IMG/VR virus record: IMGVR_UViG_3300037076_000018
Span: 1 to 29,677 of that record
Strand: one strand, 5' to 3'
DNA: 29,677 nt
Origin: a virus
In this document: in pieces, positions 2,511 to 20,928 of the stretch
Numbering within the stretch: position 1 is the stretch's first letter
Layout: every line of letters begins with the position of its first letter
Program-made: the position numbers and the translations under genes
Notes under the pieces: model-generated
What the model saw: the letters and a program-made list of their open reading frames with translations, nothing else
Told to the model about the DNA's origin: nothing
Databases searched by the model: none

Positions 2511-2544
2511 AATACAATAGGCCATGTGAACCAATACAATGGCC
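2511..2544 (+). repeat. Short direct repeat spanning a start codon
   Basis: AATACAATAGGCC at 2511-2523 and AATACAATGGCC at 2533-2544 are a 22-nt-spaced near-duplicate. The second copy contains the ATG at 2539. It may be a simple duplication or a leader element; there is no clear Shine-Dalgarno sequence in front of this ATG. Confidence 0.5.
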
Positions 2545-3525
2545 GACTACGGTAGAACAAAGAACTACGGGTTTTTCGACAATGGCGTTCCACAAGCCAC
2601 CCCGCCAGTTCGTACCTTCTTCGACGGCACATTCACTTATCAAACCCTCGATACCACAACGAAGACCCAATCTGGCGTCTGTCGCATTCAAACAACAACT
2701 AAGAAGACTCAAACTGGTGTAACTAACGTCCGTCACACGACACAGCGCACGCAGGGCGGTGTGTCCAGAATTCGAGTTGCTGGAAATCAAAAGACACAAA
2801 CTGGCGTTTCTCGTATAACTGCGAGAACACAGAGAACTCAACTTGGTGTTACAAATATTGCGCTTAACACCATCACCACAACCAAGACGCAGACTGGTGT
2901 AACTCGCATTCGTGTCACGGCCAATCAGAAGACCCTAATCGGTGTCTCACGAATTCGAGTTGCTGGTATTCAGAAGACGCAACTTGGTGTGGCCCGCATT
3001 TTGGTCACTGCCAACCAAAAAACACAGCTTGGTATTTCTAGGATCAGAGTTACGGCGAACCAGAAGACACAAACAGGTGTCTCTCGATTTAGAGTAACAG
3101 GAAACCAAAAGACTCAGCTTGGCGTTTCACGCATTCGAGTTGCTGGTATTCAAAAGACACAGATCGGTGTTTCTCGTATTCGAGTTGCTGGTATTCAGAA
3201 GACGCTGACCGGCGTCTCTCGTATCACCGTAACCTCACAGAAGACACAGACCGGACATTGTTTCATCAACACAAGAACTACGAAGTCGCAAGTCGGTATT
3301 TCCCGTATCAGGGTTACTACGCTACAAACTCAGACCGGCCATTGCTTCATCAACCGGGAAGATCAAAAGACCCAAGCTGGCGTCAGCAGAATTCAAGTTA
3401 ATGGCAATGCTGTCAATCAGCTTGGTGCTTCCAGAATCAGCAATCGCAAATTCCAAATTCAGTTTGGACGCCTGTACATTTTGTCTAGTTCGTTTGGCTT
3501 CATTAACGCACAGCAATGGCTATAA
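2539..3525 (+). CDS. GVSRI-repeat virion protein
   Basis: After a head of about 35 residues, almost the whole 328-residue protein consists of about 19 tandem units of 14-15 residues with consensus Q-K-T-Q-x-G-V-S-R-I-R-V-x-x. Two units (near 3250 and 3340) carry the variant G-H-C-F-I-N. The alternating polar/hydrophobic pattern suggests a beta-solenoid or fibrous shaft; this is inference. It has its own late promoter and lies immediately before gp13, so it is probably a neck, whisker or fibre component. A second, shorter protein with the same repeat lies just after gp15 (17219-17797), and the two genes share an identical 24-nt stretch (3373-3396 and 17603-17626). The function is unknown. The periodic DNA is coding, not a CRISPR array. 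Confidence 0.8.
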   Translation: MADYGRTKNYGFFDNGVPQATPPVRTFFDGTFTYQTLDTTTKTQSGVCRIQTTTKKTQTGVTNVRHTTQRTQGGVSRIRVAGNQKTQTGVSRITARTQRTQLGVTNIALNTITTTKTQTGVTRIRVTANQKTLIGVSRIRVAGIQKTQLGVARILVTANQKTQLGISRIRVTANQKTQTGVSRFRVTGNQKTQLGVSRIRVAGIQKTQIGVSRIRVAGIQKTLTGVSRITVTSQKTQTGHCFINTRTTKSQVGISRIRVTTLQTQTGHCFINREDQKTQAGVSRIQVNGNAVNQLGASRISNRKFQIQFGRLYILSSSFGFINAQQWL

Positions 3526-3569: not shown

Positions 3570-4307
3570 ATGCCAGCGTCTCGTCAAGATTTGATAGATT
3601 ACTGCTACCGTCGCCTGGGTGCGCCGGTTATTGAAATCAACGTCGATCCCGATCAAGTTGAAGATCGAATTGACGATGCGTTTCAATTCTTTCAGGACTA
3701 TCACTTCGACGGTGTAGAAAAAGTTTTCCTGCGCCACCAACTTACGGCGCAAGATGTTGCGAATCATTACATTCCGATTCCAGCACCAGTTATTTCCGTT
3801 CTTCGGGTTATGCCCATCTCTAACTCGAATCAAAGTATGGGAATGTTCGATATTCAGTATCAGATGCGTCTGAACGATCTGTATACGTTCACTAGTACGT
3901 CGATCATGCACTATGACATTATGCAGAAGCACTTGGCGTTGCTGAACTTTGAGTTCAACACAGAACCCGGTATTGAGTTTGAGCGCCACCAAGGGCAGCT
4001 TCGGATCAATTGGGATTGGACCAATTCAGTCACGGTCAACAGCTATGTCATTATTGAGTGCTATCGTATTCTCGATCCTAATTTGTATCCTGATGTCTAC
4101 AATGATCGTTGGTTGAAGGCGTATGCTACGGAATTGATTCGCAAGCAATGGGGCGAGAATTTGATGAAGTATGCCGGTGTATCGTTGATTGGTGGTCCGC
4201 AGTTGAATGGTGGAGAGATCTATCAAAAGGCTTTGGATAATCTTGATAAATTAGAACATGAAGTTCAAGAAGCCTACCAACTCCCAATAGATTTTATCCT
4301 TGGTTGA
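3570..4307 (+). CDS. 13: T4 gp13-like neck (head completion) protein
   Basis: The 245-residue product begins with R-Q-D-L-I-D-Y-C-Y-R-R-L-G-A-P-V-I-E-I-N-V and D-D-A-F-Q-F-F-x-x-Y-H-F-D-G-V, the typical N-terminus of gp13 in T4-like phages. The family then has a conserved middle (I-P-I-P, F-D-I-Q-Y-Q), W-L-K-A-Y-A-T-E-L-I-R-K-Q-W-G, and an N-G-G-E-I-Y-Q-K-A segment, all present. gp13 joins gp14 at the portal to complete the DNA-filled head and form the neck to which the tail attaches. The length fits somewhat shorter members of the family. In T4 gene 14 follows directly; here gp14 begins only at 15848. Confidence 0.92.
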   Translation: MPASRQDLIDYCYRRLGAPVIEINVDPDQVEDRIDDAFQFFQDYHFDGVEKVFLRHQLTAQDVANHYIPIPAPVISVLRVMPISNSNQSMGMFDIQYQMRLNDLYTFTSTSIMHYDIMQKHLALLNFEFNTEPGIEFERHQGQLRINWDWTNSVTVNSYVIIECYRILDPNLYPDVYNDRWLKAYATELIRKQWGENLMKYAGVSLIGGPQLNGGEIYQKALDNLDKLEHEVQEAYQLPIDFILG

Positions 4308-8732: not shown

Positions 8733-9137
8733 ATGAAAACGTTTGCCATATGGTTGACAGAAGCGTATGCCGGAAACATTGAAAAGGACACACTTCAAAA
8801 CACGGACTACAGACGAGTCATTTCCACTGGCCCAAATTTGCAATTGGTCTTGATGGCGATTCCTTCGGGGGAAGAAATCGGCACCGAGATTCATCACGAC
8901 CACGACCAATTCATTCGTATTGAATCCGGCGAAGCCAAAGCCGTTCTTAATGGCAAGGAAACAAAATTGACTGATGGCATGGCGATAGTTGTCCCGGCTG
9001 GCACCAAGCACAATTTCATCAACACCGGCAGTGGCGTTTTGAAGTTGTACACTTTGTATGGTCCACCAGAGCATCCGAAAGGCACCGTCGAGAAGACCAA
9101 GGCCGAAGAGAAGAAGGAAGGCAGCATCGACAAGTAG
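8733..9137 (+). CDS. Cupin-domain protein
   Basis: The 134-residue single-domain cupin belongs to the E-I-G-x-E-I-H-x-D-x-D-Q-F-I-R-I-E-x-G type (residues 48-66), with second motif G-M-A-I-V-V-P-A-G-T-K-H-N-F-I-N (82-97). His54/55/57, Gln59 and His93 are the candidate metal-site residues. Relatives are small metal-binding beta-barrels annotated as mannose-6-phosphate-isomerase-like, mostly with unproven substrates. The C-terminal ~25 residues are a charged Lys/Glu tail. It is the last gene of the plus-strand run before the minus-strand island and is followed by a strong terminator. A metabolic gene in a late cluster is unusual; it may modify a host sugar or be virion-associated, and the sequence does not decide. 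Confidence 0.88.
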   Translation: MKTFAIWLTEAYAGNIEKDTLQNTDYRRVISTGPNLQLVLMAIPSGEEIGTEIHHDHDQFIRIESGEAKAVLNGKETKLTDGMAIVVPAGTKHNFINTGSGVLKLYTLYGPPEHPKGTVEKTKAEEKKEGSIDK

Positions 9138-10474: not shown

Positions 10475-10504
10475 AGAATAGCACACAGGTACATCTATTG
10501 TCAA
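10475..10504 (-). promoter_or_regulatory. Sigma70-like early promoter with extended -10
   Basis: On the minus strand TTGACA (10499-10504), an 18-nt spacer and TGC-TATTCT (-10 at 10475-10480). The -35 overlaps the stop region of the upstream peptidase gene. The -10 lies 6 nt from the ATG at 10468. Confidence 0.65.
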
Positions 10505-11037
10505 GCGCCAGCGACCATAATTTTTGGCTCCGCTTTTTTCTGGTAGTACTTCACTTTGGCGGTCCACTTCTTCACCAGGACGGCGGCACGCTTCAGCTTG
10601 GCCTCGTTCTTCGCCAGCATCGTCATGGCATGGGCCAGCTTTGCGTCCACAGGCGCTACAACGGGCTTTGCCTTGGGTTCCCGGTGTCTGATAGGGTATT
10701 CGTTCGCCCATGCGTAGAACGCCTTGTAATCGCCATGCTTCCATGAGTACCGGGCGCAGTGCATGTCAAGATGCTTTACACCCCGCATGTGTGCCATTTC
10801 GTGAGCGATAGTTTTGGCGATGGCTGGCATGTCGAGCTTATGCTTTGGATGGGGCAGCTTGATATAGGCAACGTTGCTGTTGTAATAGGCATAACCACCA
10901 GTCCAGTTGCCACGCCAGTACTTGAATGTGATGACAGCTTTCTTGGCGTGCTCCGGTTGCAATTCGTCTTTTGCAATTCGTGTCACCAGCTTCCGTAAGT
11001 CACGGGTGCTGTATTCTGTCTTGTTGACAAGTTTCAC
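10501..11037 (-). CDS. Zinc metallopeptidase with HExxHxxGxxH motif
   Basis: H-E-M-A-H-M-R-G-V-K-H at residues 79-89 fits HExxHxxGxxH, with His79, His83 and His89 as zinc ligands and Glu80 as the catalytic base. The ~60 residues before it form a beta-rich N-lobe (G-G-Y-A-Y-Y-N-S-N-V-A-Y-I-K-L). The layout resembles SprT-like/WSS1-like proteases, which clear proteins from DNA, or small minimal gluzincins. The C-terminal ~60 residues are a basic, Lys/Ala-rich helix (K-L-K-R-A-A-V-L-V-K-K-W) that could bind nucleic acid. The start is GTG 11037 with TAGGAG 8 nt upstream, behind its own promoter at 11055-11084. Peptidase call is firm; substrate unknown. Confidence 0.75.
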   Translation of the reverse strand: MKLVNKTEYSTRDLRKLVTRIAKDELQPEHAKKAVITFKYWRGNWTGGYAYYNSNVAYIKLPHPKHKLDMPAIAKTIAHEMAHMRGVKHLDMHCARYSWKHGDYKAFYAWANEYPIRHREPKAKPVVAPVDAKLAHAMTMLAKNEAKLKRAAVLVKKWTAKVKYYQKKAEPKIMVAGA

Positions 11038-11090: not shown

Positions 11091-11651
11091 CTATTGGTGA
11101 GCGTATTGCCATTCCCGCTGTGTTAATGGAGTTTCTTTGGTGTAAGCCATGTGATGCAACAGTTCACCAAGCGAGATCGTCATGAACGTGCAGTAAGACC
11201 AGTCATGGCCGTATTGGTCGGGGTCAGGGCGCATGATATGTTCGGCTTCAAAATCCTTGCCGTCTGAATGGGCACGTTGGGTGACACGAATCTCTGAATT
11301 ATATCCAGGCTTGCGGAATTTGATCTGGCGTCCAGTCTTAATGTCTTCTGTGCTGATGATTAACCAGCCATAGTCGGCCAGCGCACGAATCCAGCGATAA
11401 AAGATCGCATCCGAAGACGGCTCTGGATGCGATTGCGGTCTCTGTGTTTCTCCAGGCTTCGGCGCACTGGCTGTGGGTCTAGTGCTGGTGGGCTTTGGAA
11501 CCCCAACCGTGAATTCACACGTTAGGCCATATTTCAGACATAACTCAATAGCAAGGTTACGTGCGGCATCACCCTCTTGGGGTGTACCCGGACGCTTTGC
11601 TAATCGAATGAGACTCGCAATCTTTCTATGTATATTCTTATCCGCAAGCAT
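11091..11651 (-). CDS. DUF2786-like protein
   Basis: Residues about 9-45 (K-I-A-S-L-I-R-L-A-K...T-P-Q-E-G-D-A-A-R-N-L-A-I-E-L-C-L-K-Y-G-L) match the short helical DUF2786 domain found in many phage and bacterial proteins of unknown role. A Pro/Thr/Ser-rich linker (about 50-78) joins it to a second domain of about 100 residues containing F-Y-R-W-I-R-A-L-A and a His-rich E-L-L-H-H-M segment. The ATG at 11651 lies inside the 3' end of the upstream HNH gene (14-nt overlap), so it is probably co-transcribed with it. The TAG stop at 11091-11093 lies just beyond the next promoter. The 186-residue length is ordinary for this family. Confidence 0.7.
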   Translation of the reverse strand: MLADKNIHRKIASLIRLAKRPGTPQEGDAARNLAIELCLKYGLTCEFTVGVPKPTSTRPTASAPKPGETQRPQSHPEPSSDAIFYRWIRALADYGWLIISTEDIKTGRQIKFRKPGYNSEIRVTQRAHSDGKDFEAEHIMRPDPDQYGHDWSYCTFMTISLGELLHHMAYTKETPLTQREWQYAHQ

Positions 11652-12114
11652 ATTTAGTCCCAGTTAGATACGCAGCGGCATTTTTACACACATCAGGATC
11701 ATCTTGAAGTAGTCCAATTGCTCGATTACACGCACCACAAAGCAATCCTCTTGTTTTTCCTGTCTTGTGTGAATGGTCTATGTGCGAGGGTTTCTCTGTA
11801 TCAAATTTTCGATGGCAGATGGCACATTGATTATTTTGTAAGACTAACAGTTGAGTGTATTCATCAGGAGTTAGATCGTGTGCTTTTAGCCGCCACCGAT
11901 GTTTGGCAGCTTTGCCTTGTGGTGATTGTCTGTAGGATTCGTGGTACTGTCGGTATTTTGGAGTTTTCTTGCGAATGCTATATTTGTCTTTGCAAACTTG
12001 GGAAACATCATATTCGTGCTTGCACGCAACGCAGTTTTTGTTGCATACATATCGCAACGTAGACCCACATTTTTTGCATGGTTTACCGTCGAATTTTTTG
12101 GTTTCTTGCTTCAC
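11638..12114 (-). CDS. Endonuclease VII-like HNH nuclease
   Basis: An N-terminal zinc finger (C-K-K-C-G...C-V-A-C-K, residues about 13-31) and a basic middle precede a C-terminal endonuclease VII-type domain: C-A-I-C-H, H-I-D-H-S-H-K-T-G-K-T-R-G-L-L-C, and C-N-R-A-I-G-L-L-Q-D-D-P (about residues 97-140). The family includes T4 gp49, which resolves branched DNA before packaging, and many free-standing homing nucleases; the 158-residue size and the added finger favour the homing type. The start is GTG 12114, only 5 nt after the late motif CCTAAATA and without a Shine-Dalgarno sequence; an early-type promoter stands further upstream. The stop overlaps the start of the DUF2786-like gene. Confidence 0.88.
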   Translation of the reverse strand: MKQETKKFDGKPCKKCGSTLRYVCNKNCVACKHEYDVSQVCKDKYSIRKKTPKYRQYHESYRQSPQGKAAKHRWRLKAHDLTPDEYTQLLVLQNNQCAICHRKFDTEKPSHIDHSHKTGKTRGLLCGACNRAIGLLQDDPDVCKNAAAYLTGTKYACG

Positions 12115-12388: not shown

Positions 12389-13231
12389 TTACTTACCGGC
12401 TTCGCAGTAACCGTTACAGTCACCCGCTGCCAATTGCTTCGGAGGGGCAGGCAATTCTTTCGGTGCTTCCGGGTGTGTTATTTCAACGTGTGGATACTTT
12501 TGGCGGAAGGTGCCGTCGAACGGAAACAACTGACGTTTTCCGGCCTTGATCTGATCGGAGATGGCGAATGTTGCCATTGTGTCGCTGTTGGGCAATTCAC
12601 GATCTGTGCCGTACTTATCGTATATGGTGACTAACGGGCCAGGAGTTTCATCACGAAAGGATCGTGGCCGGTCGCCGCTTGGATCGTGAGTCACCCATTG
12701 CGAACCGCAGCTATCGCAGTGCCAGAAGCCGATGCCATTGCCGCCACCAGAACAGGTTGCTCCGGTGCCGCAAAATTCGCAGGGGTATTGTGTTTTGGAG
12801 TTCATCCAGTAGGCGTCATTGCCTTCGGTGAGATAGTACTTCGTCATTTGGTTCATGCGCCGGGATGTCATGCGTTCGGCACAGATACCGCTGGAGTCGC
12901 CGCCATACCAGACTTCGCAATCCTGGATGTTGAAGATACACCACATCATGATCCAGGAAAGCGACTTCCAGTCACCACGTGCGTAGTCTTCGCCGTAGTA
13001 GCGACCACCGACGTGGACTTCGAGGAACTGTTCGTTGGGTTCGGCTACGATGTCGTCGCCGTCTTGTGAATAGATGGCGGGTCCGTTGAGACTGAAGTTG
13101 GGATATTCGTCTGGATATTTTACGGCCCACTTACGGGTTTCTTCCAGAACGAAAGACAGTGCGTGCCGGTCTTCTTCCGGTCGCAGGAAAAAATATTCTG
13201 GTCCGATGACGTTTGTAAGTCGTGCGGACAT
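12389..13231 (-). CDS. Unknown protein with treble-clef-like zinc site, 280 residues
   Basis: The N-terminal 110 residues are acidic and aromatic-rich (L-E-V-H-V-G-G-R-Y-Y-G-E-D-Y). Residues about 152-178 hold C-E-F-C-G-T-G-A-T-C and C-D-S-C-G, a four-to-five-Cys zinc ribbon with a Gly-rich hinge. The C-terminal 60 residues are Pro-rich and end in a small C-N-G-Y-C pair. ATG 13231 is chosen over the adjacent TTG because AGGAG is 7 nt upstream. It overlaps the end of the preceding gene by about 100 nt and is followed by a hairpin. No family recognised; a zinc-binding early phage protein is the most that can be said. Confidence 0.65.
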   Translation of the reverse strand: MSARLTNVIGPEYFFLRPEEDRHALSFVLEETRKWAVKYPDEYPNFSLNGPAIYSQDGDDIVAEPNEQFLEVHVGGRYYGEDYARGDWKSLSWIMMWCIFNIQDCEVWYGGDSSGICAERMTSRRMNQMTKYYLTEGNDAYWMNSKTQYPCEFCGTGATCSGGGNGIGFWHCDSCGSQWVTHDPSGDRPRSFRDETPGPLVTIYDKYGTDRELPNSDTMATFAISDQIKAGKRQLFPFDGTFRQKYPHVEITHPEAPKELPAPPKQLAAGDCNGYCEAGK

Positions 13232-13385
13232 CAATCAACTCCTGTGCGGTGGTTTCCGTGCGATAGTGATACACGCCACGCTCATCGTTGCGGCCCCAAG
13301 ACAAAGCAGTCGTCGGGACTTGATCGGAGTAGTGAAGTCCACCTGTCTGGTCAACGGTTAGATCGTCAACGTACCAATAAGTCAT
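13131..13385 (-). CDS. Small unknown protein, 84 residues, overlapping the next gene
   Basis: M-T-Y-W-Y-V-D-D-L-T-V-D and following residues to about 52 look like a normal acidic globular protein, and this stretch (13232-13385) has no other gene. The last ~33 residues are Arg-rich and lie in the overlap with the start of the 280-residue gene, so the reading there may be a by-product. No ribosome binding site is evident; a TTG at 13400 is an alternative start. It probably belongs to one transcript with the Ku-like gene upstream. Confidence 0.45.
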   Translation of the reverse strand: MTYWYVDDLTVDQTGGLHYSDQVPTTALSWGRNDERGVYHYRTETTAQELIDVRTTYKRHRTRIFFPATGRRPARTVFRSGRNP

Positions 13386-13469: not shown

Positions 13470-14354
13470 CTACACCGTGACGGCTTCGTCCTTGACCACC
13501 TTGACCTTCGCAGCGTGCAGCGAGGCGGTCAGAGCGGCCAGGAGGCTGTCCTGTTCGTTGGCAACGGGAGCAGCTTCGGGCGTAGGCGGAACCGCAGCGC
13601 CGGTCGCTTCGGCAGTCTTGCGGGCGATCAGGGCATTCACCTTGTTGTCCGTGGTGGAAGTGACATCGTTGGCATCGAAGTCGCCGGAAAGCGCTTCAAC
13701 CAACTGGATGCCCATCGACATATTTGCATCGGTGAAGGTCAGGCCCGACTTGGGCACTTCGACGTTGCGGACTTCGTTGGAAGTGAAGATGGTGTGCAAC
13801 ATCAGCTTCGTGCCGTCGAAAGTCGGACGGATGATGACGTTGTATTCCTTGTCACGGTCGTACATCTTGGCCTGACCGACTTTCTGCATCTTGACCAGGA
13901 CGGCCAAAAGCAGATCGTACAGGTTAGCGGCCTGTACGTTGTCCTTCGTGTCGGCACCGATGACGTAGCTGTTGTCGAAGAAGGTCGGATCGACTTGGGC
14001 CAGGGGAACGAACTTCGTGATTTCGATTCCCTTTTTGCCCTTGGTGTCGGACTTCACGCTGGCGAGTTCTTCCGGCGTCAGCGGCATGAGCTTGTCGCCA
14101 ACTTCAACGGCACGGCCAAGCATTCCGATGGGGAAGTATTCTTTGCGGTCGGCAGTGTACAACTGCGTCACGGGGAGGGCCGTTCCATCTTTCACGACGG
14201 CGAGACGGAAACCGCTCGACTCATCACGAGCAGCGGCGAACAGCTTTGCGGGGAAAGTGGTGAAGGCACCAAGGCTGATTACTACGTTTTTGTATGACCG
14301 GGCGGCAGCAGCCGGGGTCGTTTTTGAAGCAGATGCTTTAGTTTGCGTTGGCAT
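13470..14354 (-). CDS. ku: Ku-family DNA-end-binding protein
   Basis: Bacterial-type Ku forms a homodimeric ring that threads onto double-strand DNA ends and recruits ligase in non-homologous end joining. From about residue 19 the 294-residue product follows the Ku core: S-Y-K-N-V-V-I-S-L-G-A-F-T-T-F-P-A-K-L-F, then P-V-T-Q-L-Y-T-A-D, L-T-P-E-E-L, I-E-I-T-K-F-V, Q-V-D-P-T-F-F-D-N-S-Y-V-I, L-L-A-V-L-V-K-M-Q-K-V-G, Y-N-V-I-I-R-P and F-T-S-N-E-V-R. The tail (about 245-294) is an Ala/Pro linker plus a short helix. Start ATG 14354 has AAGGAAA in front and a promoter at 14402-14431; a longer frame upstream would read through that promoter. No LigD-like ligase is seen in the window, so it may use a host or distant phage ligase, or protect its own ends. 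Confidence 0.85.
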   Translation of the reverse strand: MPTQTKASASKTTPAAAARSYKNVVISLGAFTTFPAKLFAAARDESSGFRLAVVKDGTALPVTQLYTADRKEYFPIGMLGRAVEVGDKLMPLTPEELASVKSDTKGKKGIEITKFVPLAQVDPTFFDNSYVIGADTKDNVQAANLYDLLLAVLVKMQKVGQAKMYDRDKEYNVIIRPTFDGTKLMLHTIFTSNEVRNVEVPKSGLTFTDANMSMGIQLVEALSGDFDANDVTSTTDNKVNALIARKTAEATGAAVPPTPEAAPVANEQDSLLAALTASLHAAKVKVVKDEAVTV

Positions 14355-14401
14355 TTGCGTTTCCTTTTTCTGTAAGCGCTTTGTTTCTTGCTTACAAACC
14401 C

Positions 14402-14469: not shown

Positions 14470-14602
14470 CCGGCAAACAACCGGACATCTAACCGGCCAT
14501 CCAACTGACCGAAATTCTCCCATCTCTATGAAAAGACAGGAGAAAGATCGGCCAACAAAGCGGACATTTAACCGGACATTAAGCGGCACTTTTGGCGGCA
14601 TT
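14470..14602. repeat. Array of short CGGACAT-like repeats upstream of the Ku promoter
   Basis: Two clusters, 14470-14511 and 14549-14602, each hold four to five imperfect units of 11-12 nt of the form aaCCGGaCATt (for example ACCGGACATCT, ACCGGCCATCC, GCGGACATTTA, ACCGGACATTA). The spacing is close to one helical turn, so a protein binding the units would lie on one face of the DNA. The array fills the gap between the phosphoesterase stop and the Ku promoter; no gene is seen in it. Confidence 0.6.
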
Positions 14603-15170
14603 ATTCGTCCAAAACTGGAAGTCCCGGCTGTTCGACCCGTCCATTTATGAGGTCGTCCATCTTCACAAAGTCGTAGTTGACGGCTTCCAGGCTGAGAAGC
14701 AAGTGCCGTTTGGTATAGATGGCCTTCATTTCAGCCTCTTGCAGCCGGTGGAAGTTGTTGTGGAAATGCCCGTGGAGGTTCATATCCCACTTTCCATCGT
14801 CCGGTACAGGCACGTGCGTAAGCAGCAGCCGAGTGTGGCGTCCGTTCACCTTAGCCTGGAGCATGAGTTCGGTGTGAACTTCGTTCCAGCCATGCGAAAG
14901 GTACCACGCTTCTTTTTGCTTGTCGTGGTTGCCGACAATGAGGATTTTGTATCCTGGGTTGCCCTGAATGTACTTGGCGTGCGCTTCGGCCTGTCCTTTG
15001 AAGCATACGTCGCCAAGGCAGTACACAACATCGGTCGGGCCAACACGGAGTTTCCAGTTGGCGTCAATAAGGGCTTCAAACCCTTCCGGGCGGTCTCCCC
15101 ATTCGACAAGTCGATGGTGATTAAAATGGGGATCGGTAAAGACCCACGAGTTTGGTTCAAGTAGTCGCAT
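14601..15170 (-). CDS. Calcineurin-like metallophosphoesterase
   Basis: The 189-residue product has the binuclear-metal motifs in order: D-P-H (residues 13-15), G-D (53-54), G-N-H-D (80-83), T-H (118-119) and G-H-F-H (134-137). The fold hydrolyses phosphodiesters or phosphomonoesters, with Mn/Fe at the active site. The size and the opening F-T-D-P-H-F-N-H fit the small phage/bacterial subgroup rather than nuclease members such as SbcD, which are larger. It is the first gene of the minus-strand island, behind the promoter at 15199-15226. A GGAA near the ATG is a weak ribosome binding site. The substrate is unknown; a link to DNA end processing with Ku is possible but only by position. Confidence 0.88.
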   Translation of the reverse strand: MRLLEPNSWVFTDPHFNHHRLVEWGDRPEGFEALIDANWKLRVGPTDVVYCLGDVCFKGQAEAHAKYIQGNPGYKILIVGNHDKQKEAWYLSHGWNEVHTELMLQAKVNGRHTRLLLTHVPVPDDGKWDMNLHGHFHNNFHRLQEAEMKAIYTKRHLLLSLEAVNYDFVKMDDLINGRVEQPGLPVLDE

Positions 15171-15242: not shown

Positions 15243-15848
15243 GTGGCTTCAGGAATCTACAAAATCACATGCCGTTCAAATGGCAAGTCGTATATCGGAT
15301 CAGCGATCAATTTCACAAAACGCTGGTGGGCGCACAAACACGATTTGAATGCTAAACAACACGTCAACATTCATCTCCAACGTGCATGGAATAAGTACGG
15401 TGCTTCAAATTTTGAATTCTCTGTCATAGAGACTATTGATGATCCAGACTGCTTACTTATTGCAGAGCAGCGCTGGTTGGATACGTCCGACAATTTATTT
15501 AACATTTGTTTAGTGGCTGGTTCATCGTTGGGACGTGTCGCCTCCACAGAAACCAAACACAAAATGTCAATTGCAAGACAAGGAAAGGTGTTTACGGAAG
15601 ATACTCGTAAAAAAATTGGTGAGGCAAATCGTCACAGAGTTATAAGCGAAAAAACAAGAGAAAAGCAAGTCAATGCAAAAATTGGCAACACATATTGTAA
15701 AGGACGATCAATGTCAGAATCCACTAGATCTAAAATTGGTGCGGCCAACAGCGTAGCTAATCGTGGAAAAACACGCTCAGAGGAACAACGTCGTAATTAT
15801 TCATTAGCGGCCTATCGTAGATGGGAAAAGCGACGGGAGATGAGTTAA
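15243..15848 (+). CDS. GIY-YIG homing endonuclease
   Basis: G-I-Y-K-I begins at residue 4 and S-Y-I-G-S-A follows, then R-W-W-A-H-K with the conserved Arg and the catalytic Glu in L-I-A-E-Q-R-W-L. The C-terminal half has NUMOD-like repeats (E-T-K-H-K-M-S-I-A-R, T-R-K-K-I-G-E-A-N, T-R-S-K-I-G-A-A-N) that bind the target DNA. The GTG at 15243 is the only usable start, because the GIY motif comes directly after it and no other start codon lies in frame nearby. There is no Shine-Dalgarno sequence, and the late motif ends 5 nt before the GTG. It is joined to gp14 by a TAATG overlap. It is 201 residues, shorter than the GIY-YIG protein at 4351, with which it shares fold rather than close sequence. 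Confidence 0.88.
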   Translation: MASGIYKITCRSNGKSYIGSAINFTKRWWAHKHDLNAKQHVNIHLQRAWNKYGASNFEFSVIETIDDPDCLLIAEQRWLDTSDNLFNICLVAGSSLGRVASTETKHKMSIARQGKVFTEDTRKKIGEANRHRVISEKTREKQVNAKIGNTYCKGRSMSESTRSKIGAANSVANRGKTRSEEQRRNYSLAAYRRWEKRREMS

Positions 15849-16528
15849 TGGCAAGAACAATTTCGCAATACTTCAATCAGATCGGTGCAAAGGGTGAACA
15901 ACGGTTAGTTGAAGATTTGATAATCGAAAGTATAAGAATAAACGGCATGGAAATTTTCTACGTTCCACGCACATTGGTGAAGGCCGATCCCATATTTGGT
16001 GAAGATCCTCTTTCCAAATTCGAGAAAGTCTTCCCAATTGAGATGTATTATGACAACCCGCAAGAAGGTTGGCAGGGTGACCGATACATCATCAGTAAGT
16101 TCGGCCTTGAAATGCGTGAGACGGCCAACTTCATTGTATCTAGGCGCAGATTCAACGAGACCGTGCGGTACGATGGGTTCAATGCGATGCCCATTACAAG
16201 GCTCTCTACCCAAGAAGAAAGACCAAAACCCGGCGACTTGATCTATTTACCACTCACCAATGACTTGTTTCAAATCAGTTTCGCAGAGCATGAGAGTGTG
16301 TTCTATCAATTGGGCTATCGTTACATTTGGCGCATAGATGTTCAGAAGTATGACTACTCGCATGAAAAAATGAAAACCGGCAAACCAGAAATTGACAGAG
16401 TGCAGCAGTTCTTTGAAAATGTGGACAGCGCCTCGAATGATCCTCTTGCTCAAAATGATGAGTTGCAAAAAGAAGGCAAGAAGATTCTTGATACAACAGA
16501 GAAGAATCTGTTCGGAGATCCCGTCTAA
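15848..16528 (+). CDS. 14: T4 gp14-like neck (head completion) protein
   Basis: The 226-residue protein begins M-A-R-T-I-S-Q-Y-F and contains E-D-L-I-I-E-S-I-R-I-N-G-M-E-I-F-Y-V-P-R, P-I-E-M-Y-Y-D-N and I-S-K-F-G-L-E, the conserved body of gp14 in T4-like phages. Near the end, F-F-E-N-V-D-S-A-S-N-D-P-L-A-Q-N-D-E-L is the family's usual tail. gp14 with gp13 seals the filled head and receives the tail. ATG 15848 overlaps the GIY-YIG stop (TAATG) behind GGGAGATGAG; an in-frame start at 15821 would lie inside the endonuclease and is rejected. The next gene overlaps in the same way. Confidence 0.93.
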   Translation: MARTISQYFNQIGAKGEQRLVEDLIIESIRINGMEIFYVPRTLVKADPIFGEDPLSKFEKVFPIEMYYDNPQEGWQGDRYIISKFGLEMRETANFIVSRRRFNETVRYDGFNAMPITRLSTQEERPKPGDLIYLPLTNDLFQISFAEHESVFYQLGYRYIWRIDVQKYDYSHEKMKTGKPEIDRVQQFFENVDSASNDPLAQNDELQKEGKKILDTTEKNLFGDPV

Positions 16529-17217
16529 TGCTACAGAACAATCCATTTTATTGGGGAACGATCCGCAAGGTTGTAGCGGCATTCGGTGCAATCTTCTCTG
16601 ACATTCATATTGTCCGGGAAAACAAGAACGGCGACCCAGTACAAGCCATTCAGGTTCCGATAGAATTCGGGCCGCATGAGAAGTGGTTGACCAATCTTTT
16701 ACAAAATCCACAACCGGGTGTAGACGATCAAGTTGAGATGGTCCTGCCACGCATGAGTTATGAGATCACCAGTTTTACATATGACTCAGACAGAAAGCTC
16801 ACCAGCACCGGCAGGACGGTTAAAGCACTTGTAGATGGAAACAAAACATTGATGGCGCAGTACAATCCTGTGCCGTATAACATCGGCTTCCAAGTGAACA
16901 TCATGACGAAGACGATTGAAGATGGATTACAGATCATAGAACAGATCATCCCGTTCTTCACGCCGGATTATTCCATTACGGTAAAAGACATTCCTGAACT
17001 GGAACTTACAAAAGATTTGATAGTTATATTGAACGGCGTCCAGAATGAAGACACGTGGGACGGCCAGTTTCAGCAGCGCAGAACCGTGATTTGGACATTG
17101 GCGTTTACCGTGAAGGCTTACTTGTATCCGCCAGTTGGTCTTACGAAGGTCAACCTAAGAACGAATATTCAATGGCGCTTGGGCCAGCCAGAATCAACGA
17201 GTCCAACAGGAATGTAA
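16528..17217 (+). CDS. 15: T4 gp15-like tail completion and sheath stabiliser protein
   Basis: The 229-residue product opens F-Y-W-G-T-I-R-K-V-V-A-A-F-G-A-I-F-S-D-I, then I-Q-V-P-I-E-F-G-P-H-E-K-W-L, Q-V-E-M-V-L-P-R-M-S-Y and N-P-V-P-Y-N-I-G-F, all landmarks of gp15. In T4 a gp15 hexamer caps the contractile tail on the head side and couples the sheath to the neck. The ATG overlaps the gp14 stop (TAATG at 16526-16530), and the gene order 14-15 is as in T4. It ends two bases before the second repeat-protein gene. Confidence 0.94.
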   Translation: MLQNNPFYWGTIRKVVAAFGAIFSDIHIVRENKNGDPVQAIQVPIEFGPHEKWLTNLLQNPQPGVDDQVEMVLPRMSYEITSFTYDSDRKLTSTGRTVKALVDGNKTLMAQYNPVPYNIGFQVNIMTKTIEDGLQIIEQIIPFFTPDYSITVKDIPELELTKDLIVILNGVQNEDTWDGQFQQRRTVIWTLAFTVKAYLYPPVGLTKVNLRTNIQWRLGQPESTSPTGM

Positions 17218-17218
17218 A

Positions 17219-17797
17219 ATGGCGATTCCACCAGGAGTATTACAAACCGATCAGTTCAATCCAACGCCGGGTAGGGTGATACGAGAACAGCGTGGAACTG
17301 CGCTCATTGTCAATCGCACACGATACCTTCCTGGCAGCACCAGAATTAAAAAGTTAAGCAACACAATGCAATCGACCCCACATAGAGGAACAGGTCGAGT
17401 CAGAAACCCGCTTCAATACACACCAGCATTCCAGATAGAGCCGCTGCAAACCAATACAGAATTGAAAGTTGAGTTTCAACGAGGCGTGACTTGTATCGTA
17501 AAGCATTCTTTTGTGACCCAAAATGGTGTAACTAGTATCAGAAATGCAGCAACCAGAGGTTTGTCTGGTGCATCTCGTATCATCAAGGTTTTGTTGATGA
17601 ATCAAGCTGGCGTCAGCAGAATTCAAAATACAACTTCCGATGATTTGCTTGGCGTGTCCAACATCATAACGACTCTGCTGATGGATCAAACCGGCGTAAG
17701 CAGAGTTCAAAGCACAACGTCTGGCGACTTGTTAGGCGGGACGCTGGTACAGGTGACTACCACGCATACGCAGAATGGTGTGTCAAATATCGCCTAA
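17219..17797 (+). CDS. Second GVSRI-repeat virion protein
   Basis: The 192-residue protein has a basic N-terminal third (R-V-I-R-E-Q-R-G-T-A) and, from about residue 80, some eight units of about 14 residues with consensus x-x-Q-x-G-V-S-R-I-Q-x-T-T. This is the same repeat family as the protein at 2539-3525. Units alternate between a Q-x-G-V-S-R form and a D-L-L-G-V-S-N form, giving a two-unit period. Its 17603-17626 stretch is identical to 3373-3396 in the other gene. It follows gp15 by one base and is therefore probably neck- or tail-associated. No known domain. Confidence 0.75.
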   Translation: MAIPPGVLQTDQFNPTPGRVIREQRGTALIVNRTRYLPGSTRIKKLSNTMQSTPHRGTGRVRNPLQYTPAFQIEPLQTNTELKVEFQRGVTCIVKHSFVTQNGVTSIRNAATRGLSGASRIIKVLLMNQAGVSRIQNTTSDDLLGVSNIITTLLMDQTGVSRVQSTTSGDLLGGTLVQVTTTHTQNGVSNIA

Positions 17798-19930: not shown

Positions 19931-20401
19931 ATGCTCACATACCTACCAACAATTCCGAGCAATTCAATCATCGAATACCAAGTCTCTATCGACTATACGG
20001 CGCTTTCGTCTCCACAGACCACATACAGCGTTTTGATAGTCGGTCTTCCAGTGAATTACGTCGTGTGTGGAACTTGTACACGACTTGTAAATACTTTCGC
20101 TGGATCTACACTTACAAGTTTGACGTGTTCGTTGGGAGCATTTGTTCCAAACACCATTTTGACAGATTTGAATTATTACGGCATGTCGCAGGAATTGACT
20201 GGCTTACCGACTTCACAGAGCTTTACAACATCTGGTCCGACGAACAACGATCTTTCAAACCATTCAACATTTTCACCACCGACAGGGCTGTACTTCAACG
20301 GGCCGCATGATGTAGCGGCGTATTTCACAGCAATAGGAACGAATCTGAATAACCTGACGGCTGGAACCGTAGAAGTGACCGTTCTGATTCGACCATTATA
20401 A
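19931..20401 (+). CDS. Virion appendage protein C, 156 residues
   Basis: ATG 19931 is one base after the previous stop; an earlier in-frame start lies inside that gene. The product shows I-D-Y-T-A-L-S-S, G-L-P-V-N-Y-V-V-C-G-T-C-T-R-L-V and the end L-N-N-L-T-A-G-T-V-E-V-T-V-L-I-R-P-L, matching protein A from the G-T-P-P-K-H strand to the C-terminus. The stop overlaps the small terminase start (TAATG at 20399-20403). The function is unknown. Confidence 0.72.
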   Translation: MLTYLPTIPSNSIIEYQVSIDYTALSSPQTTYSVLIVGLPVNYVVCGTCTRLVNTFAGSTLTSLTCSLGAFVPNTILTDLNYYGMSQELTGLPTSQSFTTSGPTNNDLSNHSTFSPPTGLYFNGPHDVAAYFTAIGTNLNNLTAGTVEVTVLIRPL

Positions 20402-20928
20402 TGACACCACAGACCGTGAACCAAAAACTTGATGAACTCCTTGGGCTGGCCGCTGCTACAGAATCGCAGGAGCTAGTCCCAACAAAACCCGCTGAAGTTG
20501 TCTCATCCGGCAATCCAGATAAGGACATGCAGGACGATTGGGATATTGTACGCAGCGGGGTACGCAACCTGATCGAAAAAGGCAGTGAGCTTGTTGACAA
20601 TGCCAATTTCTTCGCCAAAGAAAAGCAGGACGCACGATCTGTGGAAGCCGCTTCGATGGCGCAGAAGGAAGCTAGAGAAAATTTGATGGCGCTTCTCAAC
20701 ATGCACAAAGTCCGTAAGGAAATTGAAAAGGTCTCTGCGGTATCTCCTGGCGGCGGTGGTGGCGACACAAACATACAGAACAATGCCGTCTTTGTGGGAA
20801 ACACTGCCGAGCTTCTGAAGTTCACCAAGGAAAATAGCAAACCGCTGGCTGACATGTTGAAAACTATCAATGTCCAACCGGAGATACAGGCACTAAATAG
20901 TCCTGAGACTGAGGACGATGCCGAATAA
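20401..20928 (+). CDS. 16: T4 gp16-like small terminase subunit
   Basis: In T4-like phages gp16 recognises DNA for packaging and stimulates the gp17 motor. The 175-residue protein has the acidic D-D-W-D-I-V-R segment followed by a long central coiled coil (V-E-A-A-S-M-A-Q-K-E-A-R-E-N-L-M-A-L-L-N), and then N-I-Q-N-N-A-V-F-V-G-N-T-A-E-L-L. The last part closely follows the N-I-Q-N-A-T-V-F-M-G-S-P-T-E-L of T4 gp16 as I remember it. In T4 it lies directly after gene 15; here five or six virion genes intervene. An HNH endonuclease gene starts within its last codons, and no gp17 is found in the window. Its present last residues (D-D-A-E) may be shorter than the original. Confidence 0.9.
   Translation: MTPQTVNQKLDELLGLAAATESQELVPTKPAEVVSSGNPDKDMQDDWDIVRSGVRNLIEKGSELVDNANFFAKEKQDARSVEAASMAQKEARENLMALLNMHKVRKEIEKVSAVSPGGGGGDTNIQNNAVFVGNTAELLKFTKENSKPLADMLKTINVQPEIQALNSPETEDDAE
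20892..20899 (+). promoter_or_regulatory. T4-type late promoter inside the terminase 3' end
   Basis: ACTAAATA lies in the last codons of the gp16 gene, 18 nt before the HNH start at 20918, with GAGG between. Confidence 0.5.

Follow-up and report, generated by a model that had tools for sequence, protein, structure and literature searches.

What is a Ku-like protein doing in a T4-like phage? The mycobacteriophages in which Ku has been discussed circularise via short overhangs, and a first-pass annotation had pointed to a Ku-like gene in a very different setting, the IMG/VR record IMGVR_UViG_3300037076_000018. In bacteria and in humans, Ku is a ring that grips the ends of broken DNA. We analyzed all 29,677 bases of this record (the window), together with related contigs, and asked whether the product is a Ku, whether its setting is T4-like, and what it might do there.

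A Ku-family gene among T4-type neck genes

Homologues of gp13, gp14, gp15 and the small terminase (gp16) occur in T4 order within the window, in agreement with the T4-like setting that had been claimed from the neck and terminase genes. The Ku gene belongs to an island of minus-strand genes located between gp13 and gp14.

3570..4307, plus strand, T4 gp13 homologue (head-tail adaptor); phrog_211 4.3e-38, T4 gp13 1e-13
13470..14354, minus strand, Ku gene, 294 aa, intact; ATG at 14354, stop at 13470
14362..14365, minus strand, AGGA, likely ribosome-binding site of Ku, 7 nt upstream of the ATG
15848..16528, plus strand, T4 gp14 homologue (neck protein), reading frame open from 15821; PF11649 4e-35, T4 gp14 2e-24
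16528..17217, plus strand, T4 gp15 homologue (tail sheath stabilizer); phrog_227 5.1e-73
20401..20928, plus strand, small terminase (gp16 type); phrog_445 5.8e-20

The product of 13470-14354 is a genuine Ku-family protein, as the first-pass annotation had proposed. Pfam PF02735 (Ku) matches it with 74.8 bits (1e-20; gathering cut-off 25), phrog_4873 ('Ku-like DNA end binding') aligns over residues 19-285 (5e-29), the bacterial NHEJ Ku model TIGR02772 is covered over its whole length (4e-34), and a sequence search of the PDB retrieved solved Ku chains at about 7e-16. The TIGR02772 score of 118.2 bits is below the curated cut-off of 150, and we therefore file the protein as a member of the Ku family and not as a bacterial NHEJ Ku equivalog. 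A Pfam scan at E <= 1 returned Ku and a chance calpain-inhibitor match, and no Gam family. The Ku proteins of three related contigs described below (L003, L006 and G006) also pass the PF02735 gathering score, and the presence of intact, syntenic copies on other contigs rules out chance.

The unusualness that had been claimed for the gene was borne out by a search of 50,697 phage records, in which Ku relatives were confined to 80 records from mycobacteriophages and a single faecal scaffold lacking annotation. One survey counts Ku in 11 phages (PMC8136500), and published lists also include Streptomyces phage BillNye as a carrier (PMC11936186). Among the open-licence papers searched, none described a Ku from a T4-like phage. 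To the phage Ku previously known mainly from mycobacteriophages is thus added a T4-like group of uncultured phages with a Ku of its own.

Several other features adjoin the neck genes. Proteins made of ~15-aa repeats of the KTQTGVSRIRV type flank them in the window (2539-3525 and 17219-17797, plus strand), where a 45-bp tandem array lies at 2884-3203; on the related contig L001 (7479-8651, minus strand) gp15 carries a repeat of this type as a C-terminal fusion. A cupin protein is encoded at 8733-9137 (plus strand; PF07883 3.5e-16, phrog_13536).

Conserved and variable neighbors of Ku

Searches with Ku and gp14 placed Ku next to gp14 on four more IMG/VR contigs, L001, L003, L006 and L008, the last being part of G006, a contig of 166,602 bases. 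The L001 Ku is 58% identical to that of the window, and the L006 Ku is interrupted by the contig end. L004 and L005 end short of the Ku site, so its presence or absence there cannot be judged. Ku is absent from G008, a more distant T4-like contig of 143 kb whose gp14 is 37% identical. The remainder of the island in the window is as follows.

10501..11037, minus strand, zincin-like protein with HEMAH motif, conserved Ku neighbor; 55% identity to the G006 copy
11091..11651, minus strand, DUF2786 protein, conserved Ku neighbor; PF10979 3.1e-5, 71% identity to the G006 copy
11638..12114, minus strand, endonuclease VII/HNH gene; PF02945 4.1e-21
12389..13234, minus strand, orf281, conserved Ku neighbor; 65% identity to the G006 copy, no Pfam match
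14601..15170, minus strand, phosphoesterase adjoining Ku; phrog_547 2.7e-29
15243..15848, plus strand, GIY-YIG-type homing endonuclease at the island edge, recognized from its translation; same position in L003-L006 and L008

The endonuclease VII/HNH gene is missing between these genes in L001 and G006 and is therefore probably a mobile insertion. For the zincin (HExxH), which has counterparts at L001 13749-14348 and L008 5359-5856, only sub-threshold matches to SprT-like and other peptidases were obtained, and a role in DNA-protein crosslinks would be a guess.

Joint action of Ku with the adjacent phosphoesterase had been suggested, and this suggestion did not survive the comparison. Between Ku and gp14, some relatives carry a phosphoesterase and L001 a KptA/Tpt1 RNA 2'-phosphotransferase, and nothing fills this slot in G006; the constant company of Ku consists of orf281, the DUF2786 protein and the zincin. 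We therefore rejected the phosphoesterase as a partner. The slot itself (window 14601-15170, L001 9383-9916, L008 9021-9295) is a site of gene swapping beside the GIY-YIG homing endonuclease.

Origin, exchange and selection

A tree of 20 Ku proteins united the four full-length T4-like sequences in one clade (support 100/100), subtended by a long branch and closest by path to one Ku from a Cupriavidus plasmid and one from a deltaproteobacterium, while mycobacteriophage Ku grouped with actinobacterial Ku. The faecal scaffold (MT838252) was considered as a further member of the T4-like clade and rejected, the tree placing it with actinobacterial and mycobacteriophage Ku. A single clade of phage Ku including the mycobacteriophages was likewise absent from the tree, although constraining all phage Ku to one clade was not rejected by the AU test (p-AU 0.129). 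An origin of T4-like Ku separate from that of mycobacteriophage Ku is thus favored, but not proven.

The full-length T4-like copies are 39-67% identical, monophyletic, found in the same place and all intact, and their dN/dS of 0.16-0.45 indicates purifying selection. The GC3 of Ku is the highest among the 115 G006 open reading frames longer than 150 aa (0.62 versus a mean of 0.36). The Ku genes of L003 (857-1714) and L006 (1-414) are nearly identical, with a dS of 0.07 versus 0.755 for gp14, which argues that the Ku region was recently exchanged between these two phages.

Predicted fold and working residues

Comparison of a predicted structure with bacterial Ku, proposed in the first-pass annotation as a check, gave Ku-DNA complexes as the top fold matches. 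The AlphaFold model was built from ten sequences and is of middling confidence (mean pLDDT 67). Foldseek against the PDB returned bacterial Ku-DNA complexes first (1.7e-12), and VIA-align gave a Z of 14 over ~150 residues with PDB Ku; the first-ranked structures were those of M. tuberculosis, B. subtilis and other Ku. The only good matches in a viral structure library were Ku of Mycobacterium phage Dylan and an uncultured Caudovirales Ku homologue, A0A6J5RUZ1 (15% identity).

To map individual residues, the four full-length T4-like proteins were aligned to B. subtilis and M. tuberculosis Ku, with the DNA contacts taken from B. subtilis Ku (PMC12784961). R161, R188 and Y128 (B. subtilis numbering) are identical in all four copies, K79 and H19 are conservatively replaced by R, and R49 is present in two of the four. 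Two further elements could be located in the window.

14244..14270, minus strand, equivalent of the GLVNIP loop, GAFTTFPAK, residues 29-37, with one extra residue; from the alignment
13518..13550, minus strand, minimal C-terminal helix, DSLLAALTASL, residues 269-279, aligned to M. tuberculosis Ku 249-259

In both B. subtilis and M. tuberculosis, Ku depends on the GLVNIP loop to form filaments and to bridge ends (PMC12784961, PMC12658125). The extra residue is shared by all four T4-like proteins and is absent from all 18 other Ku proteins compared, and the N32 position of this stacking loop is T, S, N and N in the four copies. The longer loop may impair bridging. The C-terminal helix, which spans residues 267-281 in the model, retains L255 and S258 in every copy, L251 in three (I in the fourth) and D250 in two. 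The basic extended C-terminal tail has been lost, and what remains of the tail is short and non-basic. In B. subtilis and P. aeruginosa Ku the minimal C-terminal region alone contacts LigD, and that of M. tuberculosis Ku suffices for stimulation of ligation; the M. tuberculosis helix also tunes DNA binding (PMC9638933).

Ligases and end protectors on the phage contigs

No DNA or RNA ligase is encoded within the window, so the remark that no ligase was in view stands. A check of the rest of the genome had also been advised, and this could be carried out in part: DNA ligases of the PF01068 type were not found in the window, L001, L003-L006, G006 or a new 60.9-kb relative, nor those of the PF01653 type in the window, L001, L004 or G006, but the contigs are incomplete and absence per genome is therefore not conclusive. 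As no DNA ligase was found on any contig of the clade, end joining would depend on an enzyme from the host, provided that the missing part encodes no ligase. G006 encodes two RNA ligases, one Naegleria RNA ligase-like and one linked to HNH nucleases; as both belong to RNA-ligase families, we think it unlikely that either serves as an NHEJ ligase. A number of counter-defense genes (Acb1, Tad4, NADAR, NAMPT and Prs) and a Mom-like protein are also found in G006 (L014-L022).

The product of gp2 protects T4 DNA ends. A gp2 end protector is encoded beside gp4 in the Ku-less G008 (phrog_429 2.4e-50); the window, L001, L004 and the Ku-carrying G006 gave no gp2 match. However, G006 also yielded no gp4, gp53, gp5-gp8 or gp25, genes that T4 needs, which indicates that the contig misses this block and makes its lack of gp2 uninformative. 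The 60.9-kb relative ends ~0.7 kb past the end region of G006 and does not reach the missing block.

Possible roles of the phage Ku

Taken together, the phage Ku probably protects the ends of phage DNA or delivers them to a ligase of the host. Judging from the modeled fold and the contact residues, it is expected to assemble, as a homodimer, into a ring on the ends of double-stranded DNA. Such a ring would most likely load on the ends of the phage genome, both the termini that are injected and those created when restriction or CRISPR nucleases of the host cut the DNA, and would shut out nucleases of the RecBCD/AddAB type. The ends might then be handed via the C-terminal helix to a host ligase, probably LigD; we infer both this step and the partner, in parallel to the proposal for mycobacteriophages Omega and Corndog, and LigD may be absent from the host of this phage. 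The result would be an end-joining or end-saving route alongside the T4-type recombination-dependent replication of the phage. Being terminally redundant and strongly recombining, T4-like phages do not need end joining for replication itself, and T4-type recombination genes (UvsW, UvsY and gp46-like) are present in G006.

Cooperation of the ring with a host ligase is the reading that we tentatively favor, at somewhat less than an even chance, over one in which Ku is purely an end protector, capping linear phage DNA and blocking RecBCD/AddAB in the manner of gp2 or Mu Gam with no ligation. Cooperation with a ligase draws on the full-length match and fold, the kept DNA contacts, the largely retained C-terminal helix, the failure to find a DNA ligase on the clade contigs, the purifying selection on intact syntenic copies and the precedent of Omega and Corndog; the longer stacking loop and D250, kept in two of four copies, speak against it. 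The end-protector reading we regard as possible but rather doubtful. The altered stacking loop and the absent basic tail fit a cap better than a bridge, gp2 turned up in G008 but in none of the Ku-carrying contigs searched, and Mu Gam, whose dimer binds DNA ends and blocks RecBCD, is described as a homologue of eukaryotic Ku (PMC12407980). Yet the gp2 pattern loses its force where G006 misses the whole gp2/gp4/baseplate block, and the retained C-terminal helix is not obviously needed by a cap, even though this helix tunes DNA binding in M. tuberculosis Ku. We would go further only speculatively, and consider it unlikely that the T4-like lineage adopted Ku, independently of the mycobacteriophages, as a replacement for gp2, its altered-loop ring capping single ends without bridging them. 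The pattern is attractive but confounded by the incomplete G006; if the replacement were real, a joining factor would here have become a shield.

Two other explanations were weighed. That Ku occupies DNA ends of the host or sequesters the host's LigD, aiding takeover or blocking defense, is made reasonable by the many counter-defense genes of G006, but nothing ties Ku to such a target and the kept DNA contacts make plain end binding simpler; we judge this improbable. Still less credible, and in our estimate very improbable, is a recently captured bacterial Ku carried as a passenger with no selected role. Both the high GC3 and the recent L003/L006 exchange would suit such an arrival, but high GC by itself is no proof of one, and the divergent, monophyletic, syntenic and intact full-length copies under purifying selection mark an old and maintained gene. 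Ku is therefore maintained in a group of phages related to others that depend on recombination for replication, which raises the question of whether end joining or end capping is important to T4-like phages. As a natural variant with an altered loop, the T4-like Ku offers a test of recent cryo-EM models of end bridging, and it could be compared cleanly with gp2 and Gam in their action against RecBCD and Gabija defense.

Comparison with known Ku proteins and end protectors

Bacterial NHEJ Ku, as in B. subtilis (YkoV) and M. tuberculosis, shares with the window protein a full-length alignment, the fold, the main DNA contacts and most of the minimal C-terminal helix; the phage protein differs in scoring below the TIGR02772 cut-off, in having no adjoining ligD and no basic tail, and in its altered stacking loop. 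The Ku proteins of Omega (cluster J) and Corndog (cluster O) resemble it in their ~280-290 aa core with a minimal C-terminal helix and in their membership of phrog_4873. According to Pitcher 2006, as cited in PMC7719229, phage Ku works with M. smegmatis LigD in these two phages; no phage LigD is known for them, and use of the host LigD has been proposed, as here. However, Omega and Corndog are siphoviruses whereas the window phage is T4-like (myovirus-type), and mycobacteriophage and T4-like Ku are 20-29% identical. The tails differ as well, those of cluster J Ku being Lsr2-like (PMC3706429), as does the loop, which is GLVNVP or GMVNVP in the Omega type and GLVTVP in the Corndog type and is one residue longer in T4-like Ku. 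T4 gp2 is alike in proposed role, keeping RecBCD off phage DNA ends, but belongs to a different protein family. Mu Gam is also a dimeric end binder; the window protein instead matches Ku itself (PF02735).
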